This document shows positions 91-556 of a stretch of DNA of 64,000 bases, piece after piece (the first letter of the stretch is position 1; each line of letters starts with the position of its first letter). A program made the translations under genes and the position numbers. Below the pieces are notes generated by a model. The model did not search any database. It was not told the DNA's origin and saw nothing but the letters and a program-made list of their open reading frames with translations. Source of the stretch: Neptuniibacter sp. (lineage in GTDB: Bacteria; Pseudomonadota; Gammaproteobacteria; Pseudomonadales; Balneatricaceae); contig NZ_JAAEQH010000258.1 of the NCBI RefSeq assembly GCF_024231755.1, forward strand, positions 1 to 64,000, in the 5' to 3' direction.

Positions 91-311
91 GATGAAAAAT
101 CTCATCGAGGAAATGGTTCTAATGATGGGGAAAGGTCAGATACTCTCCTTGTACTATTAGCATTTGAAATGGGAATTGTGGGCCTGCTCGACATCCATCT
201 GTCTGGTTAATTTAAGGTTTTAACCTACTAACCAAATCAAAACAACTGCCGTTTATTTAATCAAGATACGGCACGGGCCAATCCTCCCCTCTGTGAAGCC
301 GAGCATTGGAA
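91..311. other. Non-coding spacer downstream of the IS3 remnant
   Basis: No gene is visible. A short hairpin (AGGTT/AACCT) lies near 214-226. The right end of the IS3 element should lie here, but no terminal repeat could be assigned by eye. Confidence 0.4.
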
Positions 312-480
312 GGTTTAATCGAATAAGGTCGAAGCCTGTTTGAGGCCTGAAAGGCCGAGTTCTGCAGCCCTCGATTAAAGCTGAAACGCACAGGGAACCG
401 GGCTAAGCCCGGCAAGCAGTGGGGCTGCAGGGGATTGATAAGGGGAGATCAGCCTCTCCCCTTATCTCGTCTTTTGACGA
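312..480 (+). ncRNA. Candidate structured RNA with an interleaved pseudoknot
   Basis: Several perfect helices can be drawn. TTTAATCGA (314-322) pairs with TCGATTAAA (371-379). CTGCAGCCC (362-370) pairs with GGGCTGCAG (422-430). Because these two helices interleave, they form a pseudoknot. Inside are CCGGGC/GCCCGG (398-403/407-412) and GGCC/GGCC (344-347/353-356). Downstream are a 12-bp perfect hairpin (437-448/455-466) and a 5-bp TCGTC-TTTT-GACGA hairpin (467-480), followed by AAAGGA, which could be an old ribosome-binding site. There is no open reading frame. The size and pseudoknot recall mobile-element RNAs such as the omega RNA (HEARO) of IscB/IsrB elements, but I cannot confirm a family, and no IscB gene follows. 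The strand is assumed from the AAAGGA tail. Confidence 0.45.
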
Positions 481-556
481 AAGGAAATAAACCTAGAAGT
501 AATCTGCCTGTCCGCATAGAATCTACCTCGATCGAGAACTAATGAGGCACACAAGA

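Follow-up and report, generated by a model that had tools for sequence, protein, structure and literature searches.

Which described systems come closest to a short, structured and repeated piece of bacterial DNA? REPINs and BIMEs are inverted structured repeats linked to RAYT transposases, and some ISs target REPs. In integrons, gene cassettes carry attC, a folded recombination site with R/L boxes of the form GTTRRRY/RYYYAAC. Among MITEs, a target-site duplication is not required of every element. QMITE1/2 of Coxiella are bacterial MITEs with transcribed inserts, and by BLASTn no QMITE1 orthologues are reported in other genomes (PMC5896051). As for HEARO RNAs, 65% of the 5' UTRs of HEARO nucleases match RF02033 according to PMC9755519.

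The locus considered here belongs to Neptuniibacter sp. (GCF_024231755.1, contig NZ_JAAEQH010000258.1, positions 1 to 64,000, forward strand). The window is this whole stretch of 64,000 nucleotides, and the stretch studied within it is 312-480. The structure at 312-480 is real and beyond chance. The element to which it belongs has been shown to have numerous homologues, a nested fold which covaries and includes an H-type pseudoknot, multiple dispersed copies and back-to-back pairs. Window positions 270-485 would be a solo copy, about 215 nt long, of a mobile, structured RNA-like element, namely the RNA-bearing end of a non-autonomous mobile element, and the balance tips slightly towards this reading. 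The original prediction had described a structured RNA with one particular pseudoknot and a link to IscB/IsrB (HEARO) elements. Its general part stands, that is, an RNA-like element with some pseudoknot and an association with mobile DNA, while the specific pseudoknot and the IscB/IsrB/HEARO link are not supported.

To the left of this copy, the 3' end of an IS3-family transposase remains at the contig start (2-160, + strand), as indicated by an open frame and by matches to plasmid records. Positions 3-139 match nine plasmid records at 71-74%, two of the nine being annotated as IS3 family transposase, and the IS3 neighbour proposed earlier is based on these matches; the 52-aa frame alone gave no match among NCBIfam models. 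The remnant occupies the position that is taken by cargo genes at other copies. The right neighbour is a convergent ORF of 153 aa, and no partner unit was seen in the window.

Conserved fold and pseudoknot

The helices named originally, 314-322/371-379 and 362-370/422-430, are present in the sequence, and so are the 12-bp hairpin 437-448/455-466 and the hairpin 467-471/476-480; arms at 311-322/371-382 were found as well. Chance formation had been thought unlikely. On both strands 290-490 folds better than any of 200 shuffled versions (z of -3.5 on the + strand and -4.2 on the - strand). Are the same helices kept among homologues? From 60 distinct copies, 12 were not placed by the anchor pattern, and 8 of the remaining 48 were left out for large loop insertions or misplacement, so that 40 were aligned. 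Complementarity was used in part to locate P0, the closing helix, so that its pairing is favoured; its place follows a conserved C-N-A in the 40 rows. Across the aligned copies 96.2% of cells are paired, with two-sided changes at 26 of 34 pairs. The covariation score is 0.641 against 0.191 in shuffles, none of 500 shuffles reaching the observed score, and control structures slid along the alignment drop to 37-48% paired. Covariation counts are similar in 102 copies, 70 of them from genera outside the alignment of the covariance model R1, in an alignment which was fitted to R1 and leans towards it.

As derived from RNAalifold and pair counting, the nested core consists of P0 (286-294/416-424) enclosing P1, P2 and P3, followed by the hairpin P4; all parts are given on the + strand. 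The inner limit of the element is marked by GGCAC (270-274), which lies 13-16 nt before the closing helix in most copies and by eye is lacking in some. It is mirrored as GTGCC in many back-to-back pairs, and most of ten copies from genus g5 have a TGAGCGCA-type motif at this position. A sigma-54-like reading of the upstream TGGCACG was rejected by eye. The core (286-424) matches R1 with 136.3 bits and E 1.8e-37, the window copy being itself among the 40 from which R1 was built. P0 pairs CCCCTCTGT (286-294) with GCAGTGGGG (416-424), including a U-U mismatch at 290/420. Its variable part takes at least seven different complementary 4-mers among the copies (CUGC/GCAG, CUGU/ACAG, CUAC/GUAG, CAGU/ACUG, CUUC/GAAG, CGGC/GCCG, UGCC/GGCG and others).

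Inside P0, the 5' strand of P1 (299-307) is paired at 299-300, 303-304 and 306-307, and its 3' strand (385-394) at 385-386, 388-389 and 393-394, within a conserved GAAACGCACAGGG. P2 (311-322/371-382) is the first of the originally named helices extended by 311-312, and its pairing is conserved in the aligned copies. P3 has its 5' strand at 327-330, with 327-328 and 330 paired in the window copy, and its 3' strand at 367-370, with conserved pairing. Beyond it lies an internal loop with invariant columns, TGTTTGA/GAGTT (337-361), which is capped by a hairpin at 344-347/353-356 and is a possible k-turn. P4 is the conserved hairpin CCGGGC/GCCCGG (398-412). Some copies have an extra insertion of about 40-60 nt in the apical loop of P3 (L068:3068-3375, L041:1959-2199, L039:1919-2115). 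These insertions share a GGGCCAGCT.AAGCTGTT..TTGTGTCAG-like sequence and may represent another small element that sits within this one.

On the 3' side of the core stand two more hairpins. P5 (437-466, 12 bp) reaches a score of at least 8 in 40 of 40 copies with 29 distinct arms, a count made without shuffle control. P6, TCGTC-TTTT-GACGA (467-480), lies near the outer end of the element; scores of at least 5 were obtained in 25 of 40 copies against 11.5% of shuffles, and scores of at least 4 in 32 of 40 against 36.8%. The AAAGGA which follows had been taken as an orphan Shine-Dalgarno sequence. Since it is not general after the last hairpin in the 40 copy tails, a few of which have GAAAGG, its occurrence here is probably coincidental.

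Does the conserved fold include the pseudoknot that was first proposed? Homologues were found and their covariation is strong, with the first of the interleaved helices kept and the second broken. Helix 314-322/371-379 has 94.1% of its cells paired and is fully paired in 23 of the 40 aligned copies. For helix 362-370/422-430 the proportion is 71.1%, with full pairing in 2 of the 40, and it competes with the conserved closing helix P0. Because this second helix is rarely intact and is in competition with P0, the pseudoknot as first described is not the conserved one. The evidence from the copies supports another pseudoknot, predicted between the bases just 3' of P0 and the loop of P5. In the window copy it joins GGCTG (423-427) to CAGCC (450-454), GGCTGCAGGG with GATCAGCCTC, in five contiguous pairs, bases 423-424 being common to P0 and the pseudoknot. 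Runs of at least five contiguous Watson-Crick pairs occur in 79 of 201 copies (mean 16.4 and maximum 28 in 500 shuffles), and runs of at least four in 151 of 201 (mean 58.6 and maximum 77 in 500 shuffles); these shuffles are an optimistic control, the copies being related. Of 221 copies, 20 without a P5 of score 7 had been left out of this test.

The strand that folds may also be read from the mismatches. At paired columns G-U exceeds A-C by 32:7 in the 40 copies and by 206:24 in the 102 copies, the cells in either count not being independent. Single-stranded DNA also tolerates G-T better than A-C. The excess would fit a + strand that folds as RNA; single-stranded DNA of this strand would fit it less well.

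Might the fold be the Omega RNA of an IscB/IsrB element which has lost its nuclease gene? The likeness in size and pseudoknot, from which the original prediction inferred the link, is joined by an HNH nuclease found as cargo between two copies (L104), with Pfam HNH and no RRXRR; its HNH part gives a weak partial match to the IscB model, 18.8 bits with a cut-off of 175. The comparison with RF02033 (HEARO) that had been suggested speaks against it: the model matches nothing in the window, nor does it in 1-1200 with E up to 10, and the same is true of 36 additional loci, each of which apart from L323 holds a recognisable copy. RRXRR (IscB/IsrB) was found in 0 of 7 carrier genomes by a search that had no positive control, 14 control genomes having given no signal either, and it is absent from 20 cargo proteins scanned with Pfam. 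Moreover, the copies pair in inverted orientation around unrelated genes. Taken together, these results make such an origin exceedingly improbable.

Distribution

How widely is the element distributed? Its own genome has 13 BLAST matches, and 14 by the covariance model. With the stretch as query, BLAST matched 10 genomes, the own one among them, out of 96 that comprised it and relatives, and an exact pattern scan of named genomes gave 9 stretches in total, with matches in Pontibacterium sinense, P. granulatum, Amphritea balenae and an uncultured Marinobacterium. R1, built from the 40 aligned copies, has matches in 38 of 116 genomes of the family (9 of 16 genera), in 43 of 390 genomes of the order (16 of 142 genera) and, at E 1e-5 or better, in 56 of 369 genomes of the class (45 of 272 genera), the own genome being included each time. 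Copy counts per genome are lower bounds, as 28, 8 and 8 candidates were scored in the family, order and class scans. Copy numbers can be high, with 44 and 41 BLAST matches in G041 and G053, a few of these being flanks, and 35 R1 matches in G598.

A plasmid of Variovorax paradoxus has a clear pair, adjoining an annotated HigB-type toxin gene. Weak single matches were obtained on a Comamonas plasmid (25.5 bits) and an Aeromonas caviae plasmid record (33.8 bits). With one pair from G598 as query, the E. coli and phage collections gave no match, and several plasmid searches gave no match to the element. A viral-contig scan with the marine pattern gave none; separately, one back-to-back pair was seen on an IMG/VR contig classed as viral (L278). 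Burkholderia matches were rejected as copies of the element, as the P5-like hairpin alone is common to them and no core above chance is found at L279. This hairpin, GTTACTTTTCTTTGG..CAAAGAAAAGTAAC, occurs without an R1-recognised core in plasmid records of Burkholderia (L279) and Pasteurella (L323), and by eye the latter has two such hairpins facing each other.

Back-to-back pairs and enclosed genes

In ten genomes chosen as carriers, with all 129 listed matches used, neighbours closer than 500 nt are divergent in 37 of 37 cases, and 74 of the 129 matches belong to such divergent pairs. Many copies are single, that of the window included. Empty pairs have short spacers, and wider pairs enclose genes in genera g16, g1 and others. 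A crude calling of ORFs gave an ORF of at least 100 aa overlapping 33 of 192 matches.

For genomes of g16, the enclosed content differs at four sites with similar flanks. Site H1 has either small ORFs or a single protein, which is of DUF1493, of DUF6119 or 142 aa long. At H2 there is a lipoprotein-like ORF (by eye), alone or accompanied by an M24 peptidase, or else no ORF. H3 has a BRCT protein in two genomes and otherwise an HNH nuclease or small ORFs, and H4 has small ORFs, an ORF of 208 aa or the pair YefM-YoeB, YoeB being confirmed for L120. A fifth site carries single copies, and its content is of three kinds, each ending right before GGCAC: none, a membrane-protein-like gene (by eye, two genomes) or another gene. 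Differences of cargo could also come from homologous recombination between repeats or from ordinary hotspot drift. No clean empty site was found at H1, where the flanks lie kilobases apart in other genomes or one flank only is present.

Between neighbouring copies lie 119 ORFs (58 + 61), many of which are not genes, and 20 of their proteins were scanned with Pfam. Some match at E 0.01 was obtained for 16 of the 20, GIY-YIG, PIN and DUF4238 being among the proteins recognised. With PADLOC, 7 of 10 of the Pfam-scanned proteins have some match at E 0.01, several of them weak. Septu PtuA/PtuB (E 3.5e-142 and 4.6e-90) are part of the cargo, as is a PD-Lambda-4_A-like protein (E 2.6e-54). Among the ORFs read, no protein recurs as cargo across many pairs; nor was a recurring cargo transposase seen among the loci read, where one transposase-like fragment was noticed by eye in L201. 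Upstream genes are oftener co-directional with the element (84 co, 46 anti), a count biased by loci partly chosen for holding pairs.

Two repeated stretches next to the element were also noticed. In left units of g16 (L103, L104, L106, L116-L118, L147), about 65 nt inside CCGTGCC look alike by eye, GATTGATTTATATCTATGG..TACGTATAGT, with differing cargo, and perhaps they act as a shared cassette promoter. A separate repeat, GGTAGGCT..GCCTACCCTACA, often adjoins the element upstream in Pontibacterium-type loci (L020, L025, L031, L068).

An arrangement of this kind recalls integrons, and the element might be a substitute for attC, that is, a folded recombination site for the integron integrase. 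Different genes adjoin it in related genomes, its cargo is of cassette-like kind, and the direction of the upstream genes would agree. The copies, however, are inverted and not in one orientation, and no R/L boxes were seen by eye. Furthermore, IntI lies above the curated cut-off in just 12 of 22 carriers, and also in 3 of 10 genomes which the covariance model did not match. We thus consider a site of this type very unlikely. The genome of the window itself has three integron integrase matches above the curated cut-off (G000:C61, C120, C269).

Evidence on mobility

Does the element move? One case of presence and absence was found, in which a copy lies between two genes in G053 and the matching site of G041 has none. 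The sites measure 437 and 122 bases, respectively, between flanks that are 93-94% identical; the joints of the empty site are not clean and the exact insert is uncertain. In G598, eleven similar pairs at different places share an inverted outer motif beyond P6, approximately GGCTRGTG...GTTTCGGCC. No common target-site duplication of at least 3 nt was found in these pairs (at most 2 pairs at one setting), both end anchors having been found in 8 of the 11. The repeated inverted ends without a transposase gene that mark a MITE are found, and a target-site duplication is not found in the G598 pairs.

Near-identical pairs also occur at different loci in G339. In five of the six pairs, an IS481-like element stands 2-3 bases behind P0 of one unit (L282:1429-2501, likewise in L283, L284, L285 and L286), with a transposase of 216.8 bits for a cut-off of 224. 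It seems that this IS either targets this position of the unit or rides with the unit and carries it along, and it could itself have spread or homogenised the pairs. Since the same IS is present in five of the six, the near-identity in G339 is no clean proof of movement.

These limits leave room for a different explanation, in which the element is a 3' UTR or regulatory RNA element that is kept by the host, spread long ago and is now immobile, the pairs and their variable cargo reflecting intergenic hotspots. In its favour can be counted that G041 and G053 both keep a copy at two other sites (L133/L139, L136/L144), together with the co-directional upstream genes and the confounding IS in G339. 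It is opposed by the presence and absence between G053 and G041, and by the eleven similar G598 pairs, which have a shared outer motif at different places. We regard it as unlikely, though it should be kept in mind.

There is a further question of concern, which enzyme might mobilise the element? No mobilising protein was found, and of the three candidates searched for, IscB (with no positive control), Y1 transposase and IntI, none tracks the element; nor was an autonomous parent element sharing the ends recognised among the loci read. One candidate deserves discussion, as the fold may act as single-stranded DNA. The units would then be REP/REPIN-like hairpin ends of unusual size, which a Y1 (HUH, RAYT-type) transposase would move. 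The hairpin ends, the inverted pairs and the lack of target-site duplication would all suit such an enzyme, and an IS inserted at one fixed position of the unit recalls the REP-targeting ISs. A Y1_Tnp match is present in 8 of 10 genomes tested. The two do not go together, however: G006 and G008 have 8 and 13 copies without a Y1_Tnp match, G003 has the match without copies, and the element, as judged by a four-copy profile, is absent from all 16 loci with Y1_Tnp, taken with about 1.5 kb of flank. Together with the strong bias of G-U over A-C, this makes a Y1-driven system rather doubtful.

As none of IscB, Y1 transposase and IntI tracks the element, we favour a non-autonomous element which is moved in trans. 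In such a scenario, two units in inverted orientation would form the ends of the element; an empty pair would be MITE-like and a pair holding genes would be a cassette. The + strand of each unit, reading outward from the cargo, would fold, and an enzyme provided in trans, a recombinase or a transposase, would recognise it. The element might travel 3' of the cargo genes, which would be exchanged just inside the GGCAC motif.

Comparison with known systems

Has the element been described before? Rfam gives no match in the whole window at gathering thresholds, two chance-level matches only in 1-1200 at E up to 10, and nothing above gathering score in further loci. The nearest matches at the element are TwoAYGGAY, which falls in a loop insertion of an Aeromonas copy (L322:1608-1674, 41.5 against 43 bits), and PrrB/RsmZ in one copy (23.3 against 44 bits). 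No description was recognised in the literature searched, which was mostly open-access and included PMC2267715 and PMC4853749; an earlier published description is possible.

A strongly covarying element that is found in 56 of 369 sampled gammaproteobacterial genomes thus matches no Rfam family above threshold. Because the defence and toxin-antitoxin genes that it surrounds vary, it offers a way to approach the turnover of small defence cassettes without an encoded integrase, and the covariance model enables a direct search for the mobilising enzyme. A broader scenario, speculative and not the one we would expect to hold, is that of a class-wide, apparently unnamed mobile system, in which paired outward-reading structured RNAs, in place of DNA repeats bound by protein, would delimit exchangeable defence or toxin-antitoxin cassettes and the RNA would aid recognition or insertion by an enzyme encoded elsewhere.

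The likeness to HEARO or omega RNA (RF02033) lies in a length of about 200 nt, a pseudoknot and a mobile context, while the element differs in having no Rfam match, no IscB found and another arrangement. It is like the attC of integrons as a folded site 3' of varying, often defence or toxin-antitoxin genes, but it has two inverted units, another fold and no dependence on IntI. Like REPINs and BIMEs with their RAYT, it has paired structured units that are inverted, separated by a short spacer and scattered over intergenic positions, and in both a fixed position of the unit can be the target of an IS; its own unit, in contrast, is about 200 nt long, with a multi-helix fold and no tie to a Y1 transposase. 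QMITE1/2 are likewise short and multi-copy, with inverted ends and no transposase, and they can yield small RNAs (PMC5896051). The element differs from them in that no direct repeats were found, each of its ends bears an elaborate covarying fold with a pseudoknot, its pairs can enclose cargo, and its family spans a class.
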